This document shows positions 36,866 through 52,277 of a stretch of 64,000 bases of DNA, one piece after another. Where the stretch lies: positions 124,001 through 188,000 of the IMG/VR virus record IMGVR_UViG_3300008952_000002, one strand, 5' to 3'. The translations under genes were made by a program, and so were the position numbers. The stretch comes from a virus. The notes below the pieces were generated by a model, which saw only the letters and a program-made list of their open reading frames with translations, searched no databases and had not been told where the DNA came from. Numbering within the stretch: position 1 is the stretch's first letter; each line of letters starts with the position of its first letter.

Positions 36866-36923
36866 TTACTTTCCCTTCACCACCTGAATAATAAAAAAGA
36901 ATATGTAAAATAATACTCTAACG

Positions 36924-36931
36924 TATAAATA
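36924..36931 (+). promoter_or_regulatory. Consensus late promoter (TATAAATA)
   Basis: Predicted start near 36937; the leader to ATG 36963 carries ACAGGA. Confidence 0.65.
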
Positions 36932-36962
36932 TATAAAACATTATTTACAGGATTTCATAATT

Positions 36963-37772: not shown

Positions 37773-37784
37773 GGAATAATTATT

Positions 37785-38414: not shown

Positions 38415-38415
38415 A

Positions 38416-39012
38416 ATGAAAATTACAGACATACTACAAGAAAGCAAAGCAGCCGAAAAAGCAAAACAGGCAATTCTTAAGCGACAAGTTAAATTATTTA
38501 ATAAATTAATTGATAAAGCTGGCGAACTTGAAGAAAAAGGCAAGGTAGCAGACGCCGAAGAGTTAAACAACCAAGCCACTGAAGTAAATGATAAATTTAT
38601 TAAACAAACTGGTATGTCTATTCCTGATTATGAAACACAACAGACCAAAGCAGGCCGTGATGTTAGTGATATGATTAGTCGAATTAAAACAACAAACCTA
38701 AAACCAGGCAAAAGTCCTGCATTAATTTCAAAAGAAGCCGGCGCTACTGCGTTATTACTTCATATTTTAAGAGACGTAGTAGGGCAATTTGATGATGATG
38801 TTGCTAATCTACTGTCAGGCTTCTTATCATCCTCCAAAGCAAATCCACCAACAGCGGACCAAGTAGCCGTTGCTAGAGCAGTGGCAGATAGAGTTAAAGA
38901 ACTTGGCATTGCCAAGGATTATGCTAGTAAAACTGTTGGTAAATTAGAAAAGCATAGTCGCGCATATGACTATGATAAAAATAATCCTTCAGACTTCCGA
39001 GACAAGTATTAA
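38416..39012 (+). CDS. Leader-bearing helical protein
   Basis: A 198-residue protein opening MKITDILQE-S, a capsid-targeting-type leader with an L-Q-E site. The body is mostly helical (AAEKAKQAILKRQVKLFNKL, DQVAVARAVADRVKELG). It starts one base after the preceding stop and ends convergently against the gene at 39009. Part of the same block of likely packaged proteins; no family recognised. Confidence 0.5.
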   Translation: MKITDILQESKAAEKAKQAILKRQVKLFNKLIDKAGELEEKGKVADAEELNNQATEVNDKFIKQTGMSIPDYETQQTKAGRDVSDMISRIKTTNLKPGKSPALISKEAGATALLLHILRDVVGQFDDDVANLLSGFLSSSKANPPTADQVAVARAVADRVKELGIAKDYASKTVGKLEKHSRAYDYDKNNPSDFRDKY

Positions 39013-39269
39013 GTCCAGGGCCTACCAGAAGTTAAAGGCGCACTTGCTCCATCATCCGGAGCGACATTGTTTCCGTTATATGGATTAGGAAGTAAATTCT
39101 TGTCTAATGTATTTAAAGTTCTATAATATGGTTTAGATGGATCAGCCGCGCCAGTGATTGTGCCATCAGTTGCCACAACCTTACCTTGTCGCTTGGCTTC
39201 AGCAATATTAAGTTTTGCATCTTGCCTTGCTTGTCTTGTTCCTAGTGTTGAAATTCCGTTTGCTGCCAT
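39009..39269 (-). CDS. Small conserved virion-type protein
   Basis: An 86-residue protein starting MAANGISTLGTRQARQDAKL and ending SGRPWT. I recall the MAANGISTL start and GRPW end as a conserved small protein of T4-like cyanophages, probably virion-associated. A GGAG ribosome binding site and a divergent late promoter (39303-39310) precede it. The 3' end overlaps the previous gene by four bases. Confidence 0.6.
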   Translation of the reverse strand: MAANGISTLGTRQARQDAKLNIAEAKRQGKVVATDGTITGAADPSKPYYRTLNTLDKNLLPNPYNGNNVAPDDGASAPLTSGRPWT

Positions 39270-39301
39270 ATTATTACTCCATATATAGTATCTATTTTAT
39301 A

Positions 39302-39317
39302 CTATTTATATAAATAG
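39302..39317. promoter_or_regulatory. Palindromic bidirectional late promoter
   Basis: The 16-bp palindrome CTATTTATATAAATAG contains TATAAATA on both strands: 39309-39316 on plus and 39303-39310 on minus. It would drive the genes at 39365 (plus) and 39009-39269 (minus). The plus leader then starts with the hairpin TTTAGGC / GCCTAAA. Confidence 0.7.
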
Positions 39318-39364
39318 AAACAGTTTAGGCAACAGGCCTAAAAAAATTTTGAATGGAGAAAACA

Positions 39365-40198
39365 ATGACACAACTTATCAATCCACAACACTTTACACAA
39401 GCCGCAGACCTATTAAGGTCTTTTTTTATGGCTAAAGGATTCTTAGAAGTACACACACAAAATAGATTAAGCATACTAGCGGCATGCGAAGATCCAACAA
39501 CAATAGCGACCTATAATTACGCAGGGCAACTATGGCCCCTGCCACAAACGGGCCAAATGTGGCTCGAACATGAATTACTAACACGCCCCGACGTTCCGGG
39601 GTTTTTTTGTATTTCCACCTCCTATAGGCAAGAGCCAAATCCGGTAGCTGGTAGACATGAACTAATATTTCCAATGTTTGAGTTTGAGTTTCCAGGAACT
39701 ATTTTAGATTTAGAGAAGATGGAACGCGAACTTATGGACTACTTAACATGGTCCGATGGCGAAAACATTGTTGCTAAAGATTATTTAGAATGGTGTGATA
39801 TTTACGGCGTTAAAGAATTAGAACACGAGCATGAAGAAAAAATGTGCCAAAACTTTAATGGCCGTGTAGCAATGATTAAAAACTTTCCAAACTACACAAG
39901 TCCATTTTGGAACATGAAACAAAACGACGATGGCGAAACTGCGGCAAAGATTGATGTTATTATTGCTGGACAAGAAACAATTGGATCAGCAGAACGTGCT
40001 ACAGATAAAGAACAAATGAAACATATGTTCCATACTATTAGTGACGGCGGTTATGCTAATATACTATTTGATACGTTTGGTAGAGAAAGAGTTGAAAAAG
40101 AGTTGGAAGACTTTTTAGCAATGGACTTCTTTCCAAGAGTAGGCGGTGGCATTGGTATGACACGTTTTATTCGTGCTATGGAAATGTATAATAATTAA
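39365..40198 (+). CDS. Class II aminoacyl-tRNA-synthetase-like catalytic domain
   Basis: A 277-residue class II synthetase core related to the Asp/Asn/Lys group. Motif 2 is visible as TSYRQEPNP ... ELIFPMFEFEF, and motif 3 as GGGIGMTRFIR near the C-terminus. The usual N-terminal anticodon-binding domain is absent, as in AsnA or EpmA/GenX-type enzymes, so it may aminoacylate a small molecule or modify a protein rather than charge tRNA. It starts at ATG 39365 behind GGAGAAAA. It belongs with the translation genes bS21, bL33 and tmRNA. Confidence 0.75.
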   Translation: MTQLINPQHFTQAADLLRSFFMAKGFLEVHTQNRLSILAACEDPTTIATYNYAGQLWPLPQTGQMWLEHELLTRPDVPGFFCISTSYRQEPNPVAGRHELIFPMFEFEFPGTILDLEKMERELMDYLTWSDGENIVAKDYLEWCDIYGVKELEHEHEEKMCQNFNGRVAMIKNFPNYTSPFWNMKQNDDGETAAKIDVIIAGQETIGSAERATDKEQMKHMFHTISDGGYANILFDTFGRERVEKELEDFLAMDFFPRVGGGIGMTRFIRAMEMYNN

Positions 40199-40208
40199 TG
40201 GAGTGAAA

Positions 40209-40256
40209 AAGGGCGCCGGTAATCCTGCTAATAGCAAAACCATTCCGTACGCCCTT
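40209..40256. terminator. Nested hairpin between convergent genes
   Basis: Outer stem AAGGGCG / CGCCCTT encloses GGT/ACC and GCT/AGC pairs. It lies between the plus gene ending 40198 and the minus gene ending 40283, as expected for a bidirectional terminator, but has only a weak T-run. Confidence 0.55.
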
Positions 40257-40282
40257 CTCCTATAATAGAAATAAATTAATGT

Positions 40283-40498
40283 TTACTTGCGGTAATCTTC
40301 TCCGGAGCCTTCTGCACCAGGTCCTGGAAAGATAGTCCAACAAACATATGGTTTACCTTTATCATTTACTAGAACTTCGCAAGGGCCAGGAGTGCCGACT
40401 GTTCCTTGGAAATTCTCCCAAGCTACATCACGACCTTCTGCAGATGCGATTCCAGAAAGACCTAGTAATAAAGCTGCGCTTAAAAGAGCCTTTATCAT
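40283..40498 (-). CDS. Small secreted protein
   Basis: A 71-residue protein from ATG 40498, behind GGAGG. It has a signal peptide (MIKALLSAALLLGLSGIASA) and a mature part with two cysteines (GPCEVLVND, VCWTIFPG) that could form one disulfide. No family recognised. It may act in the periplasm or outside the cell during infection. A terminal hairpin and late promoter lie upstream. Confidence 0.6.
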   Translation of the reverse strand: MIKALLSAALLLGLSGIASAEGRDVAWENFQGTVGTPGPCEVLVNDKGKPYVCWTIFPGPGAEGSGEDYRK

Positions 40499-40516
40499 TA
40501 TAATACCTCCATAATA

Positions 40517-40549
40517 TAACCACACTCGGTGTGGTTACCCATATTTACA
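40517..40549 (-). promoter_or_regulatory. Late-like promoter with 5'-terminal 9-bp hairpin
   Basis: Minus-strand TGTAAATA (40542-40549) predicts transcription near 40536. The RNA would begin with TAACCACAC / GTGTGGTTA around a three-base loop (40517-40537), just before GGAGG. Confidence 0.6.
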
Positions 40550-40582
40550 GCAAAATTAGTGGTTATAAAGTTTATATATAAC

Positions 40583-40590
40583 AATAAATA
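40583..40590 (+). promoter_or_regulatory. Late promoter box (AATAAATA)
   Basis: Eight bases before ATG 40599, leaving a three-base leader. Confidence 0.45.
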
Positions 40591-40598
40591 CTAGTACA

Positions 40599-42539
40599 AT
40601 GGGTTTTGCATTATTTGTACTATTGACGGCGCTGTCTATCAGTGCCGTTGCCGCATATTATAGCATTATAGGATTAATGGCTATATTTGCCGCCGCGGCT
40701 GTACCCATTGCTATTATGGGGGCGGTTCTTGAAGTAGGTAAGTTAGTAACTGCCTCGTGGCTCTACCAGTTTTGGTTCAACATACCTAAATTTTTAAAGT
40801 ATTATCTTACTCTTGCGGTTGTTGTGCTAATGTTTATTACCTCTATGGGTATCTTTGGCTTTTTATCCAAGGCCCACGTAGAACAAACTACTGGCGCAGG
40901 ACAAGCACAAGCACAAGTAGAACGTATTGATGAAAAAATTGCTCGCTATAATGGCAGAGTAAATGTTACTAAAGAAAAAATTACTAGATTAGAAAGTAAT
41001 GATACAGGACAACACAATACAAATATAGCAAGAGCAATAGAACAGCAAGAGCAAATACGTGATGGTGCTTGGAATAGAGTCAGCAGTTTAATAGCACAAG
41101 AAGAAGCACAGATACAGTCATTACGTGAGCAGTTAGAAAACAATATTGACGTAGAAGAAGAACGCATTAAAGTAGCACAATCTCGTGTTCAAGAAGATGT
41201 TGTAGTAAAACAACAAGCCATCGAGCGTGTTAATCAAACAATAGCACAATTAGACACTGATGTTAAAGCATATACAGACAAAGGTGTAGAAAAAAGTGCG
41301 TGGGGTAATATTACAGATTGGGTTGAAAAAGGTAGAGAATTAAGAAAAGAACAGCAACCACGCAGAGATGAACTTGCCGCACAAATTAGAGAAATTGAAA
41401 ACGAAATTAATGAACTGCGACAAAAAGAGATTGATGTATCAGATGATGTTCAAAAACAAATAACAGCATTAAGAGCAGACTACACTAATAAAGTTAAACC
41501 ACATCAGCAAAAGATTGATGAGTTAAGACAGCAAACACAAGCAGAAATTACCGCCGCTAATAATGAAATTAAATCATTACAAGAGCAAATGGGCGTTAAA
41601 GCAGACGAAGTAGAAGGCAAAGTAAAAGAGTTAGAGATAGAAATTGAAAACTATTATACACAAATAGACACATTAAATGAAGAACGTTTTGTGTTAGCAA
41701 GCCAAGTAAGAGAATTAGAAGCAGAAGTGGGCCCAATTAAGTACATTGCTGGTTTAATATATGGCAATGATATTACGACTGACTTACTGGAAGATGCTGT
41801 AAGATGGGTTATTATTGTTATTATATTTGTATTTGATCCATTAGCAGTATTGTTAGTTATTGCTGGTAATATGACACTAATAAGATTCCGCACAGATAAA
41901 CCACGAAAACCAACACCACCTACAGAACCACCTGCTAGTAAAAAAAAGACTGATCAGCCAAAAGTCGTAGAGAAAATAGTAGAGGTTGAGAAGATAGTAG
42001 AAAAGGAAGTTCCTGTCGAAGTAGAGAAAGTTGTAGAGAAAATTGTAGAAGTTGAGAAACTAGTTGAGAAGGAAGTTCCTGTTGAAGTAGAGAAGGTTGT
42101 AGAAAAGATAGTAGAGGTTGAGAAGATAGTAGAAAAGGAAGTTCCTGTTGAAGTTGAAAAGATAGTAGAGGTTGAGAAACTGGTTGAGAAGGAAGTGCCA
42201 GTAGAGGTAATAGTTGAAAAGGAAGTGATTAAAGAAGTTCCTGTTGAAGTTATTGTAGAGAAAATTGTAGAAAAGAAAGTAGTAGAAAAGGAACAGTTAG
42301 AAGGCAAACCATTTGTGGTACATAAAGAAGATACTAAAAAAGTTAAAAAGTTAGAAAAAGAAATAGAAAAACTTAAGAAAGAATTAAACAAGTCTGACAA
42401 ACAAAAGAAATTAAGTCAAAAACAGATCGACGACTTAATGTCACGTGTAAATAATGGTGTAAGTGTTACAGAGTTTACAGAAGAAGAACAAGAATACTTA
42501 CAAACAACCTTAAAACGTAAAGATGTCCTCGGCGAATAA
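40599..42539 (+). CDS. Membrane protein with coiled coil and VEK repeats
   Basis: A 646-residue protein. Residues ~1-95 contain about three membrane helices (including FALFVLLTALSISAVAAYY and YYLTLAVVVLMFITSMGIF), residues ~100-390 are a long coiled coil, and a further helix near 400-425 (WVIIVIIFVFDPLAVLLVIA) precedes a ~100-residue run of VEK/VEKE-type repeats. The FDPLAVLLV helix resembles DUF4407-type proteins. It is likely an inner-membrane scaffold or long cytoplasmic/periplasmic protein; function unknown. Confidence 0.6.
   Translation: MGFALFVLLTALSISAVAAYYSIIGLMAIFAAAAVPIAIMGAVLEVGKLVTASWLYQFWFNIPKFLKYYLTLAVVVLMFITSMGIFGFLSKAHVEQTTGAGQAQAQVERIDEKIARYNGRVNVTKEKITRLESNDTGQHNTNIARAIEQQEQIRDGAWNRVSSLIAQEEAQIQSLREQLENNIDVEEERIKVAQSRVQEDVVVKQQAIERVNQTIAQLDTDVKAYTDKGVEKSAWGNITDWVEKGRELRKEQQPRRDELAAQIREIENEINELRQKEIDVSDDVQKQITALRADYTNKVKPHQQKIDELRQQTQAEITAANNEIKSLQEQMGVKADEVEGKVKELEIEIENYYTQIDTLNEERFVLASQVRELEAEVGPIKYIAGLIYGNDITTDLLEDAVRWVIIVIIFVFDPLAVLLVIAGNMTLIRFRTDKPRKPTPPTEPPASKKKTDQPKVVEKIVEVEKIVEKEVPVEVEKVVEKIVEVEKLVEKEVPVEVEKVVEKIVEVEKIVEKEVPVEVEKIVEVEKLVEKEVPVEVIVEKEVIKEVPVEVIVEKIVEKKVVEKEQLEGKPFVVHKEDTKKVKKLEKEIEKLKKELNKSDKQKKLSQKQIDDLMSRVNNGVSVTEFTEEEQEYLQTTLKRKDVLGE
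41967..42282 (+). repeat. VEKIVEVEK-coding minisatellite
   Basis: Degenerate tandem DNA repeats encode alternating VEKIVEVEKIVEKEVPVEVE phrases in the membrane protein. Confidence 0.75.
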
Positions 42540-42912
42540 CACAATTACACTTATAACTCCACCTGACAAATATTACGGATCAGCATTAAACATATTAATT
42601 GCGGCATGTGGTTTAGAAGATCAAAGAGAAATTTTAAATACACTAAAACATGTAGATTTAGATGTTAGTTTATGTATCTATGATCCGGTTATGAATGACA
42701 ATATAGATTGGTTGCTTAATACTACGCAACAATCAGATATCATAATAATTGATTTACGATACAATCATATTATTGCTCACGTGTTTGGATGGATGTTAAA
42801 TAAAAATAACTGCTATTACTTTTGCGATGATAGTATCGCAGAATCATATAGTTTATTAAATAAAAACAGAATAAAAAATATTATAGAGCCACTACAATAC
42901 TTGGAGGAATGA
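42523..42912 (+). CDS. Small conserved protein
   Basis: A 129-residue alpha/beta protein with strands TITLITPPD and SDIIIIDLRYNHI, ending IKNIIEPLQYLEE, loosely like a receiver-type domain but without a verified active site. It starts inside the previous gene and overlaps the bS21 gene by one base at the TGA/ATG junction. Probably one transcript with bS21. Function unknown. Confidence 0.45.
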   Translation: MSSANNTITLITPPDKYYGSALNILIAACGLEDQREILNTLKHVDLDVSLCIYDPVMNDNIDWLLNTTQQSDIIIIDLRYNHIIAHVFGWMLNKNNCYYFCDDSIAESYSLLNKNRIKNIIEPLQYLEE

Positions 42913-43220
42913 TGGCACAAACTTGGAATAATAGAAATACAAAATGGAATAATAATAGAAGAGCGCCATTCAAACAAAAAGATAAACGGGCTCCAGTAAA
43001 AATTACAGGACTCAGAGTTTGGGTTAATGACGGAAATGTTGAAAAGGCAATACGTAAACTTAAGAAGAAAATAGACAACGACGGCAAATTGCAAGAACTA
43101 AAAGCCCGCGAACATTATGAAAAGCCAAGTATTAAAAGAAAAAGAGCAAGAGACGTTGCCCGCAAGCGGCATCTTAAAGAGCAAGCAGAAAGAATACCTA
43201 GTAAAAATAGATTATACTAA
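42912..43220 (+). CDS. rpsU: Ribosomal protein bS21 with N-terminal extension
   Basis: A 102-residue phage-encoded small-subunit ribosomal protein. The core VNDGNVEKAIRKLKKKIDND, then AREHYEKPSIKRKRARDVARKRH and a terminal NRLY match bS21, whose helix sits near the 3' end of 16S rRNA and the anti-Shine-Dalgarno. About 38 extra residues at the N-terminus (QTWNNRNTKWNNNRRAPFKQ) are unusual. ATG 42912 was chosen over 42909 because GGAGG lies four bases upstream. Such proteins are known in marine phages. It could alter initiation on host ribosomes. Confidence 0.85.
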   Translation: MAQTWNNRNTKWNNNRRAPFKQKDKRAPVKITGLRVWVNDGNVEKAIRKLKKKIDNDGKLQELKAREHYEKPSIKRKRARDVARKRHLKEQAERIPSKNRLY

Positions 43221-43246
43221 CGACTAAGATACAAAATTTGCTATGA

Positions 43247-43270
43247 AAATGGGGGCAAACTGCCCCCACT
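43247..43270. terminator. Bidirectional terminator
   Basis: TGGGGGCA / TGCCCCCA, 8-bp stem and 3-base loop, flanked by A-run and C/T-run, between convergent genes. Confidence 0.8.
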
Positions 43271-43291
43271 TCCATCTCCTCCCTAAAAAGA

Positions 43292-43726
43292 TTAAAATTT
43301 AATCTCAATTTCCTTGGGTTTAGCGGTTTCAGGAACTTCTTGAACCAAACGAACTTCAAGCATACCGTTTTTACACTCTGCTGAGACAACCTTAACAAAT
43401 TCAGCAAGGTTCCAAGAGCGTTGGAAGTCGCGTGTAGCGATGCCCTTGTGTAACCATGTTTGCTTATCTGAATCTTCTTTGTGTCCTGAGACATTAAGAA
43501 CGCCGTTGTCAACGGTTACTGAAAGATCACCTTGATCAAAACCAGCGACAGCGATAGTGATAACATATTCTGTATCGCTAAGTTTTTCGATGTTGTAAGG
43601 TGGGTAAGATGGTGCTTGGCCCCTTGTAAACAATCTGTCCATATCGCCAAAGAGACGATCGAAGCCTACCATGTGTCGGTTAAGTGTTGGGATTAGATTC
43701 CCAGATGTGATTCTATACTCTGTCAT
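43292..43726 (-). CDS. Small heat-shock protein (Hsp20/IbpA family)
   Basis: A 144-residue alpha-crystallin-domain protein. The core is visible as YPPYNIEKLSDTEYVITIAV, VTVDNGVLNVSGHKE and a C-terminal GMLEVRLVQEVPE with a P-E-x-A-K-P-K-E-I-E-I-type end. It prevents aggregation of unfolded proteins, and Hsp20 genes are known in marine phages. An AAGGAGG ribosome binding site lies seven bases before ATG, and a perfect sigma70 promoter is at 43793-43821. The terminator at 43247 follows. Confidence 0.9.
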   Translation of the reverse strand: MTEYRITSGNLIPTLNRHMVGFDRLFGDMDRLFTRGQAPSYPPYNIEKLSDTEYVITIAVAGFDQGDLSVTVDNGVLNVSGHKEDSDKQTWLHKGIATRDFQRSWNLAEFVKVVSAECKNGMLEVRLVQEVPETAKPKEIEIKF

Positions 43727-43792
43727 TTTAAGTTCCTCCTTATATTAAGCGAGTAAAGTTATAAGCCTCCCAATTGAGCACTTATATTACAT

Positions 43793-43821
43793 ATTATAGC
43801 ATCTTTGCTTTAATATGTCAA
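43793..43821 (-). promoter_or_regulatory. Consensus sigma70 promoter for Hsp20
   Basis: Reading leftward: TTGACA, 17 bases, TATAAT. The leader is about 60 bases and ends in a strong ribosome binding site. Confidence 0.8.
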
Positions 43822-43830
43822 TAATATTTA

Positions 43831-44898
43831 TCAAAGATTTCGTAGTGTTTCTAAATTTTTTGTTTGCAAGAAAAATTCTTCTGTCTTTGTGTATTCTTCA
43901 AATTGTGCGTCTGACCAATCCATAAAAGAATGATCATTAGTAGTAAACACATATTCATCAATGCTTGCGTTTCGAATCGCAATAAGTTTGGTAAACCAAC
44001 GATCAGTGACATATTTAACGGCATTATCAAACGTTGTATAATTGTGCGGAGTTTTTACCATGTTTACACTCATTTCAAAGTGGCAGTCATCATATTTTCC
44101 ATAACAATATTCAGCCCATAGATCAATGTTGCTTTGTACTTCTTCCCATTTAGCAGGCCATCTAACATAATTAAATGTTTCTTCAATGCCATCTATACTA
44201 AAACACATATCGACACTTTTGTATTCTTTGAAAATACTCCATTTTTCATCTTCTAAATCTATTCTGACGGTACCGTTTGTGTTATAAATGACATAAACAT
44301 CCTTTCTTTGTTCTGGCGGAATTAAATTTAAAATTTTAAAGTGTGAATCTGTTAGCAAGGGTTCACCGCCGTTGAAGTGTATATTTTCCATATTTTTAAA
44401 GTCAATATTCGGAATATCTTCTTTTTTAAATTCATAAGAGTAATCTAAATTACTTACATAGTTTCCTTTATAACGTAAATCAGTTTTTCCTGCTTTATCT
44501 GCTTTTTTAAGAAGTGTAAACCATGATGAACTATTTGTATATGTACAAGTACTACAAGCCAAATTACACAAGTTTCCAGTCCAAAAATCTAACTTATACG
44601 GAGCATCATTTTCAAGAGCATCTTCAAAATTGCCGTGTTGTTCTAACCAAACATCATTAGAATGTAATCGTCTGCTATATCGACCAAACTTTTCTTGTTC
44701 AACACAGGCGCGACATTCTTCAGGAACTTCGTTGTTTAGAATTTGTTTTCGTATATTTTCAAGATAAGGATCGTTCCATAGGTCATCTTTTTGAGTGCTT
44801 TTTTGCCCTTCATTAAGACAACAAGGAAAAATATGATCTTCTTTAACTATAGAAAGACTTACGAAAGGCTCTATACAAAAGAACTTTTTGTCGTGCAT
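43831..44898 (-). CDS. Radical SAM protein (4 of 5)
   Basis: A 355-residue protein. The Fe-S motif CNLACSTC lies near residues 110-117, followed by the GGEP block (FNGGEPLLTD). An N-terminal CCLNEGQ and a CRACVEQE segment provide extra cysteines of the SPASM/twitch type. The substrate is unknown. A late box (minus TATAAATA, 44907-44914) lies eight bases before ATG 44898, within a divergent promoter pair. Confidence 0.78.
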   Translation of the reverse strand: MHDKKFFCIEPFVSLSIVKEDHIFPCCLNEGQKSTQKDDLWNDPYLENIRKQILNNEVPEECRACVEQEKFGRYSRRLHSNDVWLEQHGNFEDALENDAPYKLDFWTGNLCNLACSTCTYTNSSSWFTLLKKADKAGKTDLRYKGNYVSNLDYSYEFKKEDIPNIDFKNMENIHFNGGEPLLTDSHFKILNLIPPEQRKDVYVIYNTNGTVRIDLEDEKWSIFKEYKSVDMCFSIDGIEETFNYVRWPAKWEEVQSNIDLWAEYCYGKYDDCHFEMSVNMVKTPHNYTTFDNAVKYVTDRWFTKLIAIRNASIDEYVFTTNDHSFMDWSDAQFEEYTKTEEFFLQTKNLETLRNL

Positions 44899-44906
44899 GG
44901 TACAAA

Positions 44907-44914
44907 TATTTATA
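44907..44914 (-). promoter_or_regulatory. Late promoter, minus member of divergent pair
   Basis: TATAAATA on minus, eight bases before ATG 44898. Confidence 0.6.
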
Positions 44915-44928
44915 ATAATATTCTTTTA

Positions 44929-44936
44929 CATAAATA
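44929..44936 (+). promoter_or_regulatory. Late promoter, plus member, leaderless geometry
   Basis: CATAAATA, five bases, ATG 44942. Confidence 0.7.
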
Positions 44937-44941
44937 TATTA

Positions 44942-45412
44942 ATGAAGTCTAATAGTTTCTTAAAGTGGTGGTTATTGACCTGCGTAATAGCATGTAGTGC
45001 CGCAGTATTATATTATTTTGATATGTGGCGTACTCTTTGGTATTTAGACCAAACAAAAATTAGTTTCTTTATTATAGCATTGTTTACAGGCGTAACAGCC
45101 AATATAGGGTTACAAACATACAAAGTTTCTAAACGCAAACCATTAAACTTTAGATCTATAGAAGTATCTTGGTTCTTCGCCGAGTCGATGGTATCACTAG
45201 GACTAATTGGAACAGTAACTGGATTTATTATAATGCTTGGTGGCTCGTTTAACGATCTAGATTTATCAAACATCGGACAGGCAAAAGAAGTCATTCGCGA
45301 CATGGCTGCTGGTATGAGTACAGCATTAACTACTACATTGGTGGGTTTAACGTGTTCGTTACTTTCAAAACTTCAATTGATAAACTTAGAATATGACCAC
45401 AGGAAAGCGTGA
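44942..45412 (+). CDS. ExbB/TolQ/MotA-like proton-channel subunit
   Basis: A 156-residue membrane protein. After an N-terminal helix it has two closely spaced helices containing SLGLIGTVTGFIIMLGG and GMSTALTTTLVGLTCSLL, the core of the ExbB/TolQ/MotA family, which uses the proton-motive force across the inner membrane. The length is short relative to ExbB. The next gene, overlapping by 20 bases, encodes a plausible ExbD/MotB-like partner. It starts a late operon running into ClpS. Confidence 0.75.
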   Translation: MKSNSFLKWWLLTCVIACSAAVLYYFDMWRTLWYLDQTKISFFIIALFTGVTANIGLQTYKVSKRKPLNFRSIEVSWFFAESMVSLGLIGTVTGFIIMLGGSFNDLDLSNIGQAKEVIRDMAAGMSTALTTTLVGLTCSLLSKLQLINLEYDHRKA

Positions 45413-46223
45413 GCGATCAAAATTTTCAGGACTAGGATTTACTGATCTACTTTTTAATACATTAGTAGGTTTCGTATTTCTGTTTGTTATCTCTTTTTTG
45501 CTAATACAACCTCCTATACCTACGAATAAAAAAATAGACCCTAAGTCTGAACTAATTATTACATTGACTTGGGAAGTTGGCAATTACAGTGATATTGACT
45601 TGTGGGTAAAAGATCCTGAAGGTAATGTTGTTAGTTTTAAATCGCGCACATCAGGCTTAATGCATTTAGATAGAGATGATTTGGGCGCGGCAAACGATAC
45701 ACTTATGTTAGCAGACGGCACTATAGTAGCAGTAGATGAAAATGTTGAAGTTGCTACTATACGTGGCTGGATTCCAGGTGAATGGACAGTTAATGTACAC
45801 TATTATGCACATCGGTCAAGACTTTCCGGATACACGGGAGCAGATAATCCTGAGGACATATCTCCAAATCCTCCCAAATATCCAATACCTGTAACAGTTG
45901 AATTAGTAAGAGTAAATCCGTTTAAAGAAATTACTACTGCCAAATTTGAAATGACAGAAACTGGCGAAGAAGTTACTGCATTTAACTTTACAGTTGTACA
46001 AAGAGAGAATGGAATCGCAACCCCAGACGGTACCCAAAGTTATACATATTCTATAGAATACGTTAATAATCATCCGACACCATTTGTATATACAGATGGG
46101 TTAACACACTTTGAAGACGATAATGGCAATCATCCTATGGCAATTGGTGATACATATGATCCTAGTCTATGGGATGGAATGACAACTCAATTGAGAAAAT
46201 GGCAACAAGAGGGAACTAATTAG
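45393..46223 (+). CDS. ExbD/MotB-like partner with an extracytoplasmic domain
   Basis: A 276-residue protein. The N-terminal ~40 residues have the ExbD/MotB-style single helix with a conserved aspartate (GFTDLLFNTLVGFVFLFVIS). A proline-rich linker leads to a periplasmic domain containing the YfaP/DUF2135-type motif YSDIDLWVKDPEGN. This layout fits a proton-driven complex that reaches across the periplasm. It overlaps the upstream channel gene and is followed by a two-helix membrane gene. Confidence 0.65.
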   Translation: MTTGKRERSKFSGLGFTDLLFNTLVGFVFLFVISFLLIQPPIPTNKKIDPKSELIITLTWEVGNYSDIDLWVKDPEGNVVSFKSRTSGLMHLDRDDLGAANDTLMLADGTIVAVDENVEVATIRGWIPGEWTVNVHYYAHRSRLSGYTGADNPEDISPNPPKYPIPVTVELVRVNPFKEITTAKFEMTETGEEVTAFNFTVVQRENGIATPDGTQSYTYSIEYVNNHPTPFVYTDGLTHFEDDNGNHPMAIGDTYDPSLWDGMTTQLRKWQQEGTN

Positions 46224-46225
46224 TT

Positions 46226-46789
46226 ATGTCAGAGAAAGAAATAATAGATTTTACTGATTATACTACGGATGAAATCGTTTTATCAGACTGGTATAATATT
46301 ATATACGAGTTTGGTTTACAATTGGGTGCCATGCTAGTATTAGCAATATTAGTATTATACGCATTACTAAAAACACCAGCTAAGTTTTATATAAAGTTTT
46401 TAACAATTCCATTGATTTTTTTCTTATTCTATAGTACAATAGTGAAGTTAAATAATTTTCTAGGATATGCACTTCCTACATACCCTTCAGGAAAAGTTGT
46501 GCTACTTGATGGACAACGACAAGGGCATGTAATAGAAATATGGGTGCAACATTTAGGAGAGAGAAATACTCGTTTATATAAAATACCTTTCTCACGAGAA
46601 ATGCAAGAAGAACTTAAACGTGGAAGAGAAGCAAAGAAAAAAGGAAACCCACTAGTTATTGAATTTTTAGAGGGTATGCTGGAGCGAGGGCAAAGTGGAC
46701 AAACTCGAGAAGGCGCAAGATATAAAATATATAGACTAAAAGACTTTGTAGATAAAAATATTAAGAAAGATTACGAAAAGGATAATTAA
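46226..46789 (+). CDS. Two-helix membrane protein of the ExbBD-like operon
   Basis: A 187-residue protein with helices near residues 30-55 (QLGAMLVLAILVLYALL) and 60-80 (FLTIPLIFFLFYSTIV), then a soluble basic C-terminal domain (ERNTRLYKIPFSREMQ ... RYKIYRLKDFVDK). Genes on both sides overlap or adjoin. A third component of the proton-channel complex is plausible, but the family is unrecognised. Confidence 0.5.
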   Translation: MSEKEIIDFTDYTTDEIVLSDWYNIIYEFGLQLGAMLVLAILVLYALLKTPAKFYIKFLTIPLIFFLFYSTIVKLNNFLGYALPTYPSGKVVLLDGQRQGHVIEIWVQHLGERNTRLYKIPFSREMQEELKRGREAKKKGNPLVIEFLEGMLERGQSGQTREGARYKIYRLKDFVDKNIKKDYEKDN

Positions 46790-47088
46790 TGTCTGATACT
46801 GCAACCAAGATTAAAAAGCAATTAGATTTAAAAGAGCCATCATTGTATAAAGTTATATTCATCAATGATGATGTAACACCAATGGACTTTGTTGTTAATG
46901 TTCTTATGACTGTGTTTAGCCACACATTAGAAGAAGCACAAGAACTAACATATAAAGTAGATGCAGAAGGTTCTGCTATTGTTGCTATTTTGCCATATGA
47001 AATTGCTGAACAACACGGTATTGAAGTGACACTTTTGGCACGAAATAATAATTATCCGCTACAAGTTAAAGTAGAAGCGGATAAATAA
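46789..47088 (+). CDS. clpS: ClpS adaptor
   Basis: A 99-residue adaptor that delivers N-degron substrates to ClpAP/ClpCP. The family core is clear: YKVIFINDDVTPMDFVVNVL, SHTLEEAQELTYKVDAEG and LPYEIAEQHG ... NNYPLQVKVE. The motif residues N-D-D and the substrate-binding region are intact. ClpS genes are known in marine phages. Near a tmRNA gene it adds a second route of targeted proteolysis. The ATG overlaps the upstream stop by one base. Confidence 0.9.
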   Translation: MSDTATKIKKQLDLKEPSLYKVIFINDDVTPMDFVVNVLMTVFSHTLEEAQELTYKVDAEGSAIVAILPYEIAEQHGIEVTLLARNNNYPLQVKVEADK

Positions 47089-47111
47089 CTTATATTTTAA
47101 AGGAGCTTATT

Positions 47112-47279
47112 ATGTTTAATTTAATTGATTGGGCCAAAGCAAAATGGTCAGAAAGATCAACTTGGGATGGCACAGTACTAGTAGGTGTTGGTGTTCTTGC
47201 ACTATTATTTTCACCACTAGTTACTTGGATTGCATGGGCCGCTATTATTTACGGTGCATGGAGAATTTGGCAAGACTAA
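47112..47279 (+). CDS. Small one-to-two-helix membrane protein
   Basis: A 55-residue protein behind AAAGGAG, beginning MFNLIDWAKAKWSERSTW and containing two closely spaced hydrophobic stretches (VLVGVGVLALLFSPL, WIAWAAIIYGAW). I recall similar short proteins in marine phages. It is too short for a confident function. It sits between ClpS and the gene at 47294. Confidence 0.6.
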   Translation: MFNLIDWAKAKWSERSTWDGTVLVGVGVLALLFSPLVTWIAWAAIIYGAWRIWQD

Positions 47280-47293
47280 TATAGGATTTGATT

Positions 47294-47620
47294 ATGGATG
47301 ACTCAACTTTAAAATTAGAGTGTCTCAAACTTGCAGAAGGCGATGTTGAAAAAGCAGAAACTTTTTACGCATTTTGTAAAGATCTGCAAGAATCAAATTC
47401 AAAACAAATACTCAAAGAAACACATAGGTACACTGAAACACCATATTTCGATTGCGGGCCCGCAACATGGGGCCCATCATCACGTTGGTATAACACTTAC
47501 ACAAATCTTGATGTTCCTTTTATTCCGGAAACATCTGATGAAATGACAAATGAAAAAGCAAAAGAACATGTTATTGACAATCATGCGTTTGCCGACAACA
47601 CAACAAAAAATCAATACTAA
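47294..47620 (+). CDS. Unknown acidic protein
   Basis: A 108-residue protein starting at ATG 47294 behind TAGGA. It begins [20 protein letters not shown] and contains a pair of GP turns ([12 protein letters not shown]) and a hydrophilic tail. No domain recognised. Its TAA overlaps the ATG of bL33 by one base, so it is probably translationally coupled to it. Confidence 0.5.
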
Positions 47621-47793
47621 TGTCTTATCCTACTAGTAAATCAATTAGAATAGTTAAACTAGTGTCAACAGAAGGCACTGGCTACTATTATACTACTACT
47701 AAAAACGGACGCAATCCTGAAAAACTACGTAAAAAGAAATACGATCCAGTTTTAAGAAAACACGTCTGGTTTGAAGAAAAGAAAATTAAATAA
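47620..47793 (+). CDS. rpmG: Ribosomal protein bL33
   Basis: A 57-residue large-subunit ribosomal protein. It matches bL33 along its length: [20 protein letters not shown], then [12 protein letters not shown] and [12 protein letters not shown]. It lacks zinc cysteines, so it is the C-minus form. bL33 lies near the ribosomal E site and peptidyl-tRNA path. Phage copies are known from marine viromics. It precedes a strong stem-loop and the tmRNA gene. Confidence 0.9.
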
Positions 47794-47818
47794 AGGAATG
47801 CTCAGGTATTCCTTTATT
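47789..47818 (+). terminator. Stem-loop terminator after bL33
   Basis: AATAAAGGAAT / ATTCCTTTATT, 11-bp stem with 8-base loop, spanning the bL33 stop codon. Confidence 0.8.
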
Positions 47819-47830
47819 CTTCTACACCTA

Positions 47831-47838
47831 TATAAATA
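47831..47838 (+). promoter_or_regulatory. Consensus late promoter for tmRNA
   Basis: TATAAATA predicts transcription from about 47844, immediately before the acceptor piece. Confidence 0.65.
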
Positions 47839-47843
47839 ATTTT

Positions 47844-48100
47844 GATTGTCGTATGAAGTTGAAAGTACGCATTCTGGACCCGGGGGCAGTGCCCGGCACC
47901 TCCACCAAATTTTTTACGGGGGTGACACAGTTTCGACAGGGTGAAGAGGATAAATGGACGACATATGGGAGCAGTTCCATATTAAAAAACAGCAAACTAT
48001 ATAATTGCAAATGACGATTATTACGATTACGCATTAGCCGCCTAATTAGCGGTCGCGTAGGGGGTTTCGGGGGCGACACCTTCTTAACAAAGTCGCCCCC
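47844..48100 (+). ncRNA. ssrA: Circularly permuted two-piece tmRNA (alphaproteobacterial type)
   Basis: This RNA rescues stalled ribosomes and tags the incomplete protein. The gene is permuted: the acceptor piece comes first and ends in a T-arm (CCGGG/CCCGG with a 7-base loop) and CACCTCC-A-CCA at 47897-47907. After a short linker the coding piece begins GGGGGTGACACAG at 47918, and GGGGGTG pairs with CACCTCC over all seven positions (one G-U). The tag frame at 48007-48045 encodes ANDDYYDYALAA followed by TAA. A GC-rich 9-bp hairpin (48069-48100) ends the element. The permuted form is typical of alphaproteobacteria and suggests the host group. Confidence 0.9.
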
Positions 48101-48108
48101 ACTAAATA
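48101..48108 (+). promoter_or_regulatory. Late-like box, leaderless geometry
   Basis: ACTAAATA, five bases, ATG 48114. It directly follows the tmRNA 3' hairpin. Confidence 0.5.
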
Positions 48109-48113
48109 TGTGT

Positions 48114-48899
48114 ATGGAAACGAAAGAAGAAACGCCTTACAAATATGTTGCTTTAGGATGTAGTTTAACAGGATGTAGTTTAACTCAACAGCACGGCTAT
48201 GTGCACTATTTAAATGGTACCTATAGTTTAGATATTAAACATATTTCACAAGGCGGTGGAGACAATTATTTACAACACCATAGATTATCTAATCTTTATG
48301 CAAAAAATTTAATTAATAAAGATACCACACTACTTTGGCAGTTAACAGCGCCAGATAGACTTTTTTATCTATTGAATGACGATCAAGATGTAGAGTTTCA
48401 TGGTCTTAAATATGGGGAAGACGACGTTGAGAAGAAACCTGACTGGGATTGGATGTGGTTCTATCACAATAAACTAAAAAGTTATACTGAAGAAGAATGG
48501 AGTATTTTTAACAGGAAAGCAATAAGTATTAGAGCAAACAATCAAAGATTTCATTATGAAATGAAATTTGGCTGCCTTACCCGAACAATTTATCATTTGC
48601 AAGAAACGCTTGTTAATATAGGCTTATGGTCTAATACGGTCAAAGAAATAATATTATATTTTGGTTGGGATTGGTATGGAGAATACAAAGACGAGATGTA
48701 CCCACAAACATTGGATTTTTTACATAGATATTCTAATATTAAAGTAATACCTCTAGAAAAAAGCATACTGCAATGGTCTATAGATAAAAATATTACCCTC
48801 TATGAAGACGGGATGCATCCGAGTTATGAAGGTCATTGTGACTGGTGTAAAAATGTGTTAGTACCTTATTTAGATTTATATGGAAGTATGTATTCATGA
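48114..48899 (+). CDS. SGNH-hydrolase-like protein with a duplicated nucleophile motif (2 of 3)
   Basis: A 261-residue protein with SGNH blocks: the nucleophile strand VALGCSLTGCSLTQ, a glycine block SQGGGDN and a C-terminal DGMHPSYEGH. The GCSLT pentapeptide is duplicated in tandem by a 15-bp repeat. Esterase or acyltransferase activity on host glycans or lipids is plausible. ATG 48114 was preferred over 48108 because the promoter box predicts +1 there. The next gene overlaps by four bases. Confidence 0.6.
   Translation: METKEETPYKYVALGCSLTGCSLTQQHGYVHYLNGTYSLDIKHISQGGGDNYLQHHRLSNLYAKNLINKDTTLLWQLTAPDRLFYLLNDDQDVEFHGLKYGEDDVEKKPDWDWMWFYHNKLKSYTEEEWSIFNRKAISIRANNQRFHYEMKFGCLTRTIYHLQETLVNIGLWSNTVKEIILYFGWDWYGEYKDEMYPQTLDFLHRYSNIKVIPLEKSILQWSIDKNITLYEDGMHPSYEGHCDWCKNVLVPYLDLYGSMYS
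48156..48185 (+). repeat. 15-bp tandem repeat in the SGNH gene
   Basis: GGATGTAGTTTAACA followed by GGATGTAGTTTAACT duplicates the serine nucleophile loop (GCSLT twice). Confidence 0.8.
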
Positions 48900-49387
48900 T
48901 AACAAGAAATATTATTAAAAATGTTATATTAGTATTAGGGTTATTAGGCTTACTAACATACGCAAGCATTAATGCGGTTGCGTGTGTTGAAGGTTGTACT
49001 AACGTTAGAGAACAATTTAACTTTCGATCCTACTCAAGTGATGCAACACATGGTTGGTATACAGGCTATGAACGAGGTGTTCATCCACTATGCGACGGTA
49101 TTGACATTGACCATGTTGTAAGTTTAAAAGAAGCATGTGAGTTAGGATTACCAAAAGAACTTTGGGTAGAGTTTGCTAATGATTCGGAAAATCATGTTCC
49201 GGCATGTTCTTCTATTAACAGGTCAAAAGGATCAGCAAATCCAGAAACATGGCTAGAACGATCGCAAGATGGGCGCGGCAGAGATTACGAAATACTGCAT
49301 TATGAAAAATATGTAGATTTATATTACTATATATTAGACAAGTATGGCCTAGAAAAAGATCGTTTCCTTTCAAACCCCGCTAATTAA
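48896..49387 (+). CDS. Secreted HNH-type nuclease (DUF1524-like)
   Basis: A 163-residue protein. The first ~28 residues form a signal peptide or anchor (VILVLGLLGLLTYASINAVA). The catalytic core CDGIDIDHVVSLKEA carries the D-H of the beta-beta-alpha-metal fold, with a later NHVPACSS. DUF1524 nucleases cut DNA outside the cytoplasm. Four cysteines suggest disulfides, so the periplasmic thioredoxin-like gene nearby may matter. It overlaps the SGNH-like gene by four bases. Confidence 0.7.
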   Translation: MITRNIIKNVILVLGLLGLLTYASINAVACVEGCTNVREQFNFRSYSSDATHGWYTGYERGVHPLCDGIDIDHVVSLKEACELGLPKELWVEFANDSENHVPACSSINRSKGSANPETWLERSQDGRGRDYEILHYEKYVDLYYYILDKYGLEKDRFLSNPAN

Positions 49388-49964
49388 AAACTTTTTTAGT
49401 TCGTAATACCTGATGAATTTGGCCGATATCATTTGCTAAGTTTATTCTTTTTGCAAACATACTTATTTCCTCTTCATTGTAATTACTAAGTATAGATAAT
49501 TTTTCAGGATTATAATTGTTGTTTTTAATTCTAATATAATCTATTTGTGGGAACTCTTCTATAACTTCAGCAGTATGTTTTAACCAGTTACCATAATACA
49601 CTTCTTCAGAATCAGTGTCTAGATAGTTTGGTGTGCCGGCATATATATTATTAATTTTTCCGTTTAAACCAGTAAAGTCAAATCCTAATATGTAGATGGT
49701 GGTATGTCCAATGTTACTTGCTAACCACAATGCTGTAGGTCCAGAACTCCAGCCGTGTGGATTTTCAAAGTAGGTTGCTCCTTTATATTTTGCCTTATTA
49801 ATTTCAAATATCATTTCAGGATTAACGGCGACAAGATGATGTGGAGTGAACTCTCTATACAATGCATTACATCCATAGACTATTCCATTTTCTTTTAAAC
49901 TGTCTAAAGATATCGCTTGTCTACTTGTGCCATTCCCTAGTACAAATGCTATATTATTCTTCAT
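49380..49964 (-). CDS. Rossmann-like GNGxSR family protein, paralogue 2 of 3
   Basis: A 194-residue protein with IAFVLGNGTSRQAISL, YGCNALYREF and a later strand IYILGFDF, like the genes at 1007 and 61390. It therefore belongs to the same DUF115-like family with a probable nucleotide-binding fold. ATG 49964 overlaps the end of the upstream gene. The C-terminal half carries a charged helical tail (ENISMFAKRINLANDIG-type). Substrate unknown. Confidence 0.6.
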   Translation of the reverse strand: MKNNIAFVLGNGTSRQAISLDSLKENGIVYGCNALYREFTPHHLVAVNPEMIFEINKAKYKGATYFENPHGWSSGPTALWLASNIGHTTIYILGFDFTGLNGKINNIYAGTPNYLDTDSEEVYYGNWLKHTAEVIEEFPQIDYIRIKNNNYNPEKLSILSNYNEEEISMFAKRINLANDIGQIHQVLRTKKVFN

Positions 49965-50187
49965 CAAGATCTCTCAACTCATTTTCGATTAATGCAGCTA
50001 CAACTGCCCCGGGCGCAATTTCTTTTTCTATAGAAAAAATGAGAAACTCGGCTATTTGAATTTCCTTTTCAATCCAAAATTTGTTGTTGTTTAATTCTTT
50101 AATTCTTGTACGAAGTTCTTCAATTTCTTGTTGTTTTTTCTTCTTTAACTTCAATATTTTGTCAAAGTCTATTATGCCATCGTCCAT
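49954..50187 (-). CDS. Small coiled-coil protein
   Basis: A 77-residue protein starting MDDGIIDFDKILKLKKKKQQ, with a basic coiled coil (EIEELRTRIKELNNNKFWIE) and a hydrophobic segment near FLIFSIEKEIAPGAVVAALI. Its N-terminus echoes the protein at 2680. A late box (AATAAATA on minus) lies six bases before ATG 50187. Function unknown. Confidence 0.5.
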   Translation of the reverse strand: MDDGIIDFDKILKLKKKKQQEIEELRTRIKELNNNKFWIEKEIQIAEFLIFSIEKEIAPGAVVAALIENELRDLDEE

Positions 50188-50193
50188 AATCAA

Positions 50194-50213
50194 TATTTAT
50201 TAAATAATAAATA
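50194..50213. promoter_or_regulatory. Divergent late promoters
   Basis: Minus AATAAATA (50194-50201) and plus AATAAATA (50206-50213) are separated by four bases. The plus box is four bases before ATG 50218. Confidence 0.6.
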
Positions 50214-50217
50214 CAGT

Positions 50218-50637
50218 ATGAGAAAATTATTATTATTCTTGTTATTATTAATACCAACAACAGCGTATAGTTTACAACTATTTGTTGTAGAAGCAGATTG
50301 GTGTCCGTCGTGTCGCGCATGGCAGGCACAAGTACAGCCACTCTATACTCCAGAATTAGATTCGTATCTTCCTTTGATAGAAATTAACATTACACATGGT
50401 ATTATTGAAAACTTAGATTATATTCAATACTATCGTGACGGCAAAATAAAAAAACTTTATGCCACTCCTACGTTCTTTATATGGGACGAAGAAAAAAAGC
50501 GAGAAATTGTAAGATGGGTTGGTTATATCGACGCTGAACATTGGTTCGCAATGCTAGAAAAAGCAATAGACGTTGCTAAAAATTCTATTAAAGATTGTGA
50601 AGAACATAATGTATGTAACAATTTCAATTTAAATTAA
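50218..50637 (+). CDS. Periplasmic thioredoxin-like protein
   Basis: A 139-residue protein with a signal peptide (MRKLLLFLLLLIPTTAYS) and a thioredoxin active site WCPSC near residues 31-35, followed by TPTFFIW and the cis-proline region. It would act on disulfides in the periplasm or extracytoplasmic virion proteins. Two further cysteines (DCEEHNVC) lie near the C-terminus. The late box is four bases upstream. Confidence 0.8.
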   Translation: MRKLLLFLLLLIPTTAYSLQLFVVEADWCPSCRAWQAQVQPLYTPELDSYLPLIEINITHGIIENLDYIQYYRDGKIKKLYATPTFFIWDEEKKREIVRWVGYIDAEHWFAMLEKAIDVAKNSIKDCEEHNVCNNFNLN

Positions 50638-50666
50638 ACATAAATTCTTTATGCATAAGTATTATT

Positions 50667-51020
50667 ATGGATATCTATCACGTCTGGGCAAATATTGAAG
50701 GTGATATTACCGACGAAGAATTTGTCGACAATATTAAAAGTTTCCTTAATCAACTCAAAGAAGAAAATAAAATCGAATCATATCGTATTACACGTTGTAA
50801 GTTAGGATTTCGCAGTATACAAGATTTGCCAGAATGGCATATTATGATTGAAACAACAGACATGTCGCAATTGGAGTCAGCTTTCCATCGCGTTGCCAGG
50901 CCTGATCGCTATGTTTTAGATGAAGTGGAAGGCAAGGTTGATGAAAAACATAAGTCGTTCAATCAATTTGTAGCAGATGATATCCAACACGCATTATACA
51001 GGGACTGGCCAGATGAGTGA
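50667..51020 (+). CDS. DUF6614-like protein
   Basis: A 117-residue protein starting MDIYHVWANIEGDITDEEF, with IESYRITRCKLGF and LPEWHIMIETTDMSQLESAF. These match what I recall of DUF6614, a small conserved marine-bacterial family of unknown function. The stop overlaps the next gene start by eight bases. No catalytic role established. Confidence 0.6.
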   Translation: MDIYHVWANIEGDITDEEFVDNIKSFLNQLKEENKIESYRITRCKLGFRSIQDLPEWHIMIETTDMSQLESAFHRVARPDRYVLDEVEGKVDEKHKSFNQFVADDIQHALYRDWPDE

Positions 51021-51258
51021 TGACAACGTCGTTGATATTAAAGGAAAGAAAATAGACGAAACCAATATTGACGGAAATTTCCTACATAAAATTTTCGATG
51101 ATGAATTTACTAAAACAGTATCTGATCGTTGGTTAATTAAGACACTCGATGTTTTAGCAGAAAGCGGTATTGATACTGATAATGAAGATTTTAATCATGA
51201 TCTATCAATCATAGTTCAATTAATGGACACTTTAATTTATCGGCACAAAAATAAATGA
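51013..51258 (+). CDS. Small acidic protein
   Basis: An 81-residue protein starting at ATG 51013, with NVVDIKGKKIDETNIDGNF and a helical C-terminal half (NHDLSIIVQLMDTLIYRH). It overlaps both neighbours by a few bases, so it is probably translationally coupled between the DUF6614-like protein and the SbmA-like transporter. Function unknown. Confidence 0.5.
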   Translation: MSDDNVVDIKGKKIDETNIDGNFLHKIFDDEFTKTVSDRWLIKTLDVLAESGIDTDNEDFNHDLSIIVQLMDTLIYRHKNK

Positions 51259-52277
51259 TAAAAGCATTTTATAAAACTAAGAAATGGGCACTATGGGCTT
51301 ATGGCGGTGGCTCTCTATTAGTTATATCGTTATGGTTACAAGTTCAATTAACAGTAGCGATAAACACATGGTATGGTGGATTTTATGACTTACTACAAAA
51401 GTCTGGTGAATATAAAAATAATGCCAGTGAAGGCATTTCTTTATTTTATGAAAAATTACTAGGCTTACAATATTTTAGTGATGGTGATCCCTCATTTGCT
51501 GTATTAGCATTTCCATATGTGCTGTTAGCGGTGCTCACTGGGTGGTTTACACGCATATACGGACTCCGTTGGCGAGAGGCAATGACCTTTGACTACATTC
51601 CGCGTTGGCGCAATGTTGAAGAAGAAATTGAAGGTGCATCACAGCGTATTCAAGAGGACTGCAATCGGTTTGCTAGAATTGTAGAAAGTTTGGGATTGCA
51701 AGTTGTGCGGGCGTTAATGACACTCGTTGCGTTTATTCCAGTGCTGTGGGGGTTAAGTTCTTCAGTTACTATTCCATTCTTTAGCGACATTCCTGGCTCA
51801 CTTGTATGGGTAGCATTATTTGTATCTATAGGCGGGTTGGTTATTTCATGGTTTGTAGGTATTAAACTGCCCGGACTTGAATATAACAATCAACGTGTCG
51901 AAGCCGCATTTAGAAAGGATTTAGTGTTTGGTGAAGATGACAAAGTAAACTATGCACAACCAGAAACATTAGCAAGTTTATTCACAGGCATACGTTTCAA
52001 CTATCAACGTTTGTACTTACACTATGGATATTTTGACACATGGATGATTATGTATGATCAAGCAATGGTTATTGTGCCTTACTTAATCGTAGGTCCAAGT
52101 TTGTTTACTGGTGCTGTATTATTAGGTGTAGTAGTGCAAGTGTCAAATGCGTTCCAGAAAGTACATGGTGGGTTTGCATTATTCTTGCATAACTGGACAA
52201 CAATTACAGAATTGCGTTCAATATATAAACGTTTGAGCGAATTCGAGCGCAATCTAAACAAATACGCTATTTCTTGA
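51255..52277 (+). CDS. SbmA/BacA-family membrane transporter
   Basis: A 340-residue protein with about six membrane helices and the family blocks RWREAMTFDYIPRW, ASQRIQEDCNRFARI, LEYNNQRVEAAFRKDLVF and IYKRLSEFE. SbmA/BacA proteins are proton-driven importers of peptides (microcins, proline-rich peptides) and related ligands. It is shorter than the ~400-residue bacterial proteins. A phage copy could change uptake of peptides or cobalamin-like molecules. It overlaps the upstream gene by four bases. Confidence 0.85.
   Translation: MIKAFYKTKKWALWAYGGGSLLVISLWLQVQLTVAINTWYGGFYDLLQKSGEYKNNASEGISLFYEKLLGLQYFSDGDPSFAVLAFPYVLLAVLTGWFTRIYGLRWREAMTFDYIPRWRNVEEEIEGASQRIQEDCNRFARIVESLGLQVVRALMTLVAFIPVLWGLSSSVTIPFFSDIPGSLVWVALFVSIGGLVISWFVGIKLPGLEYNNQRVEAAFRKDLVFGEDDKVNYAQPETLASLFTGIRFNYQRLYLHYGYFDTWMIMYDQAMVIVPYLIVGPSLFTGAVLLGVVVQVSNAFQKVHGGFALFLHNWTTITELRSIYKRLSEFERNLNKYAIS

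Follow-up and report, generated by a model that had tools for sequence, protein, structure and literature searches.

Why do phages carry tmRNA genes, and what does a phage gain by keeping one next to genes for a Clp adaptor and a ribosomal protein? The locus described here bears on this question. It lies in a window of 64,000 nt (positions 124001–188000) of a 201,690-bp IMG/VR record, linear and possibly incomplete, of a T4-like phage. Genes for a portal protein, terminase large subunit, major head protein and SbcCD-type nuclease lie elsewhere in the record, and the window itself encodes a DnaB-like helicase and ribonucleotide reductase. No tRNA gene was found in the entire 201,690 bp, so the tmRNA is the sole tRNA-like gene there. 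We note that radical SAM domains match four window proteins (5268–6581 and 43831–44898 on the minus strand, 27164–28678 and 62003–63346 on the plus strand), and that an open reading frame (ORF) of 4936 codons lies outside the window at 36740–51550 of the record.

A circularly permuted tmRNA gene

The window encodes a complete circularly permuted tmRNA gene at 47844–48103 on the plus strand (Table 1). In cmscan searches, it matches the permuted tmRNA model RF04321 at 121.8 bits (cut-off 47, E = 2.9e-23) over model positions 1–213 of 213, and the alphaproteobacterial model RF01849 at 83.7 bits (cut-off 50). ARAGORN also calls a permuted tmRNA here and predicts the tag ANDDYYDYALAA. The initial annotation had proposed a phage-encoded, permuted two-piece tmRNA, with RF01849 as the model to run; that model matches, and together with the RF04321 match and the phage genes of the record it bears the proposal out. 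The one-piece model RF00023 scores at best 29.5 bits, below its cut-off throughout the record. The E-values, and the compensatory change described below, rule out a chance match.

The layout proposed for the gene was likewise recovered: the acceptor piece lies 5′ of the coding piece with 10 nt between them, GGGGGTG (47918–47924) pairs over seven positions with CACCTCC, a discriminator A and CCA are encoded at 47904–47907, and the tag frame ends in TAA. G3·U70 and A73, which are established alanine identity elements, are present with the encoded CCA, as are a resume codon, a tag with a small hydrophobic end (ALAA) and a stop. The folding energy of the whole molecule is weakly below that of shuffles (z = −1.84) and was not used as evidence.

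Table 1 Features of the tmRNA gene and its upstream neighbours (window coordinates).
Feature	Position	Strand	Basis
ClpS, 99 aa	46789..47088	+	PF02617 94.6 bits (cut-off 23); PDB ClpS matches
Small membrane protein, 55 aa; position kept in L014 and L016	47112..47279	+	no Pfam match
Protein without assigned function, 108–110 aa; start codon uncertain, position kept	47288..47620	+	ORF conservation
Ribosomal protein bL33, 57 aa	47620..47793	+	PF00471 57.1 bits (cut-off 25); bL33 chains of solved ribosomes
TATAAATA, plausible T4-type late promoter box	47831..47838	+	sequence; position preference
Acceptor piece (P2 5′ strand, T-arm, acceptor 3′ strand, ACCA)	47844..47907	+	sequence, cmscan
P2 outer strand TGTCGT, partner ACGACA at 47959–47964	47847..47852	+	all 6 pairs formed in 7/7 sequences, 2 of them doubly compensated
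T-arm CCGGG-GGCAGTG-CCCGG, alphaproteobacterial type	47880..47896	+	8/17 positions differ from L014
Acceptor stem 3′ strand CACCTCC, U70 opposite G3	47897..47903	+	U-G pair invariant in 7/7
Intervening segment AATTTTTTAC, 10 nt, presumably removed	47908..47917	+	sequence
Coding piece, 3′ end approximate	47918..48103	+	ARAGORN, cmscan
D-loop segment ACACAGTTT, A18 matching G55 of changed T-loop	47925..47933	+	sequence comparison
Tag reading frame ANDDYYDYALAA, stop TAA	48007..48045	+	ARAGORN
3′ hairpin GGGGGCGAC / GTCGCCCCC, loop ACCTTCTTAACAAA, limits approximate; HTVC008M counterpart ACCTCGTAACAGAA	48068..48100	+	sequence

The structure is kept under sequence change. Seven phage permuted tmRNAs were aligned over the tRNA-like domain and P2, with the intervening segments taken out. 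All 24 tested pairs of the tRNA-like domain are standard in all seven copies, 10 pairs are doubly changed compared with 3.2 in shuffles, and sliding the partners by 1–3 columns leaves pairing in just 42–61% of cells; with seven related sequences, which are few, the pair count supports the structure and is no precise measure. The stop-codon helix covaries between the window (CCGC/GCGG) and its relative L014 (CTGC/GCAG), as does the hairpin after P2, and the tags of relatives retain LAA or MAA despite DNA change.

A T4-type late box had also been reported just before the acceptor piece, and this was upheld in part. The octamer TATAAATA is present, and transcription beginning 6 nt downstream of it would start at G47844, the first nucleotide of the acceptor piece. 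Across the record, 22 of its 32 copies lie within 80 nt upstream of gene starts (taken from an ORF-based gene set made for this analysis), which places it first of 56 8-mers of the same composition, and a T4-type late promoter is plausible because of this preference. However, the window holds about as many copies as chance predicts (17 versus 13.2 expected), and the octamer is absent upstream of the tmRNA in both nearest relatives, L014 and L016.

ClpS and bL33 beside the tmRNA

The bL33 gene ends 53 nt before the P2 strand of the tmRNA, and the order membrane protein–ClpS–small membrane protein–unknown protein–bL33–tmRNA is common to three phage lineages, represented by the window, L014 and L016; L014 has one additional ORF between bL33 and the tmRNA. 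ClpS is the N-degron adaptor of the ClpAP protease, and E. coli ClpS binds substrates through N34, D35, D36, M40 and H66. The first four residues (E. coli numbering) are kept in the phage proteins, and at the position of H66 the window and L014 have D and L016 has H, so N-degron binding is uncertain and the specificity of this ClpS may differ. A literature search, which many subscription journals lay outside, found no paper joining ClpS, bL33 and tmRNA, and this neighbourhood appears to be the unreported part of the locus.

Further ClpS-bearing phage contigs carry related genes in varied combinations. The permuted tmRNA lies 9 kb from ClpS in G012, 7 kb in G017 and 10 kb in G018 and G020; no frequency of linkage is given because ClpS similarity was the basis for choosing the records, many of which are fragmentary. 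ClpP is encoded in the relatives G006, G012, G013, G018 and G019, and ClpA- or ClpX-sized AAA_2 ATPases in G012, G013 and G019; neither ClpP nor a ClpA/X-type ATPase was found in the window's record. As a separate observation, the phage contigs G012, G013, G018 and G019 have both ClpS and ClpP, with the ATPase too in all of these except G018. Among four isolate phages with ClpS, one has a permuted tmRNA (Phosso, 48 kb from ClpS and unannotated); it is the closest isolate encountered that combines the two, and no isolate is known to have the window's gene order.

Whether the neighbours act together with the tmRNA is finely balanced. We give about equal weight to a coincidental accumulation in a large phage, which would deny a joint role and leave the tmRNA itself untouched: large phages gather translation and proteostasis genes generally (PMC7162821, PMC7824862), the ClpS phages PA5oct, Vibrio 2.275.O and SCTP-2 gave no permuted tmRNA when searched, and of the phage records searched, only those in the clade of the window gave bL33 above cut-off. 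What coincidence accommodates less readily is an order kept across lineages although their ClpS proteins are merely 73% (L016) to 84% (L014) identical to the window's, and the proximity of ClpS and permuted tmRNA, within 7–10 kb, in the three further groups above.

Judged from its sequence, the window gene is very probably a functional phage two-piece tmRNA. The precursor would be transcribed on the plus strand, possibly from the late promoter, starting at the acceptor piece, with read-through from the ClpS–bL33 genes as a possible further source; between bL33 and the tmRNA a standard scan found no terminator, though AAAGGAAT-ATTCCTTT is visible by eye. Host tRNA-processing enzymes would cut out the 10-nt intervening segment, leaving a CCA-terminated acceptor piece and the coding piece, which the acceptor stem and P2 would hold together. 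With G3·U70 and A73 kept, the molecule is predicted to be charged by host AlaRS. No SmpB was found in the record, so the tmRNA is expected to depend on host SmpB, which would bring it to stalled ribosomes; the ALAA-ending tag would be added there, and the product would be degraded by host ClpXP or ClpAP.

That the RNA is a decoy, which would bind SmpB or stalled ribosomes and thereby inhibit host trans-translation or turn it aside, is improbable, because a decoy would not need the tag frame, stop codon, ALAA end and stop helix, all of which are kept under change. It has a precedent in the tag-less tmRNA-like form of phage DS6A, which inhibits endogenous tmRNA in E. coli according to a passage of PMC11915505, and competition with the host tmRNA would be expected of a phage copy.

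For a functional tmRNA, a joint role with its neighbours can be sketched. The tmRNA, phage ClpS and bL33 may keep ribosomes turning over and influence Clp protease targets during infection, and the tmRNA is perhaps part of a phage cassette for taking over translation and proteolysis. In E. coli, ClpS is an inhibitor of the degradation of ssrA-tagged proteins by ClpAP and favours that of N-degron substrates; a phage with both tmRNA and ClpS could therefore uncouple rescue from the fate of the tagged product. The conserved order with a Clp adaptor and a ribosomal protein offers a concrete, testable hypothesis for why a phage keeps a tmRNA, namely that rescue and degradation are controlled together.

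The T-arm, the D-loop and the host class

The window tmRNA differs from that of L014 at 8 of 17 T-arm positions and 4 of 9 D-loop positions, and elsewhere at only about 8 of 234 (hand tally). Outside these two elements L014, whose T-arm is canonical, is ~97% identical. The T-loop reads GGCAGTG in the window, TTCGACT in L014 and TTCGATC in L016. The D-loop has changed with it, at the 55/18 tertiary contact: in 23 distinct parsed tmRNAs, all 16 with G55 have A18, and six of the seven with T55 have G18, the seventh (TATAGGG) being alignable either way; these counts are not independent because the sequences are related. Read most simply, a T-arm of alphaproteobacterial type was acquired in the window lineage and the D-loop then followed, a direction suggested by L014 and L016 as outgroups. 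A T-arm and D-loop that shift together within a nearly constant tmRNA amount to a natural experiment.

A 32-nt stretch (GGAC, T-arm, acceptor strand, ACCA) is exact in nine bacterial genomes, all Alphaproteobacteria (Rhodospirillales/Acetobacteraceae and one Enterousia), and the 17-nt T-arm occurs in 30 of 385 alphaproteobacterial genomes. Tried as a guide to the host, these matches point to a possible donor, not to a host. The genuine tmRNAs of the same nine genomes score 229–261 bits against RF01849 in eight cases and 137 in the ninth, compared with 83.7 in the window. By sequence comparison, then, the window gene does not appear to be a good alphaproteobacterial tmRNA, and its alpha-like look seems to rest largely on a T-arm that differs from that of its relatives. 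The betaproteobacterial model RF01850 fits the nearest phage relatives best (L014, 87.2 bits; L016, 99.6 bits); for the window gene its score is lower than that of the alpha model, and the window T-arm is not betaproteobacterial.

A recently captured host tmRNA without function, carried as a passenger or left as a remnant of ssrA integration, is very unlikely: tmRNA genes often serve for integration (PMC9004378, PMC11915505) and some alphaproteobacteria have an identical T-arm, yet the gene is complete, stands in a conserved phage order across three diverged lineages, has low whole-gene similarity to alphaproteobacterial tmRNA and carries compensatory change, and the covariation already largely refutes this reading.

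The initial annotation had also taken the arrangement as the alphaproteobacterial one and as a pointer to the host class. The match to the alpha model stands; the exclusivity does not, and the host identification is weak, as the score is low and permuted forms exist in Alphaproteobacteria, Betaproteobacteria and cyanobacteria (PMC9004378, PMC11915505). Phage Melnitz has a gammaproteobacterial host and yet an alpha-type ssrA (PMC9004378), so tmRNA type need not give the host. Nor does bL33 place it, its best matches being phylum-wide at 63–70% identity with no class standing out. Host class is thus at most weakly indicated by this tmRNA, and the corrected inference is a warning against deducing host class from a phage tmRNA.

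The exchange and the neighbourhood can be joined in one tentative scheme, which we regard as rather doubtful taken whole: ClpS, bL33 and tmRNA would be a dedicated cassette seizing rescue and Clp proteolysis, a ClpS with an altered N-degron pocket would steer ClpAP off ssrA-tagged substrates, and the tmRNA would be a chimera, its T-arm swapped for an alphaproteobacterial one and its D-loop changed to restore the tertiary contact. The tmRNA itself is real and probably functional; further attention is merited by its neighbourhood and by the T-arm/D-loop change.

Comparison with known tmRNAs, ClpS and bL33

Other phage permuted tmRNAs yielded observations on the intervening segment. In L063 (reverse strand) and L016 (5960–6500; clade G006–G010), it is 192 nt long; short ORFs with Shine-Dalgarno-like sequences occur within it, and one of these ORFs seemingly ends in a membrane segment (MRFLRNKIKTLPRPFRKAIEYMFKIYVAWSICADIIIIGGIVYLIFF). 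ARAGORN calls in L016 were wrong because the segment is long, and the right gene was located by covariance model. A 133-nt segment in L056 (1577–1684; G018, G020) holds a 35-aa membrane-like ORF (MIKGLIFATITIIVSVCWVVYMYNNNVRVYHKIEK) behind AAGGA. In L082 (1572–1763, reverse strand; G032, also L046) the segment measures 224 nt and codes for a DUF6356 protein of 63 aa (46.2 bits, cut-off 24.4), so the two parts of a phage tmRNA flank a protein gene. The unannotated permuted tmRNA of Sinorhizobium phage Phosso (PV764938.1, 349596–350198, minus strand; 113.3 bits, tag ANDNVSTKVALAA) has an intervening segment of several hundred nt.

Two-piece phage tmRNA is already known as a kind, and the window gene is another member. 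The form is not unusual among phages, whose tmRNAs the initial annotation had regarded as mostly one-piece: of 133 unique phage tmRNAs, 53 are two-piece, and marine or aquatic phages account for 50 of these (PMC9004378, 2022); a set of 79 bacteriophage tmRNA sequences accompanied the introduction of RF04321 (PMC11915505). Melnitz, a Methylophilales phage, and the SAR11 myophages Mosig and HTVC008M (PMC9004378; KC465899) are like the window phage in being T4-like aquatic myophages with a permuted tmRNA and a tag ending in LAA. The Melnitz tmRNA adjoins a transcription coactivator and a glutamine riboswitch, the latter also in Mosig (PMC9004378). HTVC008M, whose own RF04321 score is 90.6 bits, gave a mixed answer to the suggested comparison with SAR11: the acceptor stem and 3′ hairpin loop are shared with the window, whereas the T-loop (TGCAATA) is unlike GGCAGTG; also unlike the window, neither ClpS nor bL33 was found in HTVC008M. 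Alphaproteobacterial tmRNA (RF01849) resembles the window gene in gene order, the 32-nt stretch with the T-arm and the 3′ hairpin, and is unlike it in the D-loop (except CAG), the P2 region, and the tag and its surroundings.

Virus-encoded bL33 is, as here, a ribosomal protein in aquatic phage genomes (PMC6375957, PMC13157829; the text of these papers does not mention tmRNA or ClpS), and bL33 contacts E-site tRNA (PMC6375957). The jumbo phages PA5oct, SCTP-2 and Phosso also encode ClpS (PMC7824862); there it adjoins ClpX, S21, a small heat-shock protein or thymidine kinase, in contrast to its place beside tmRNA and bL33 in the window.
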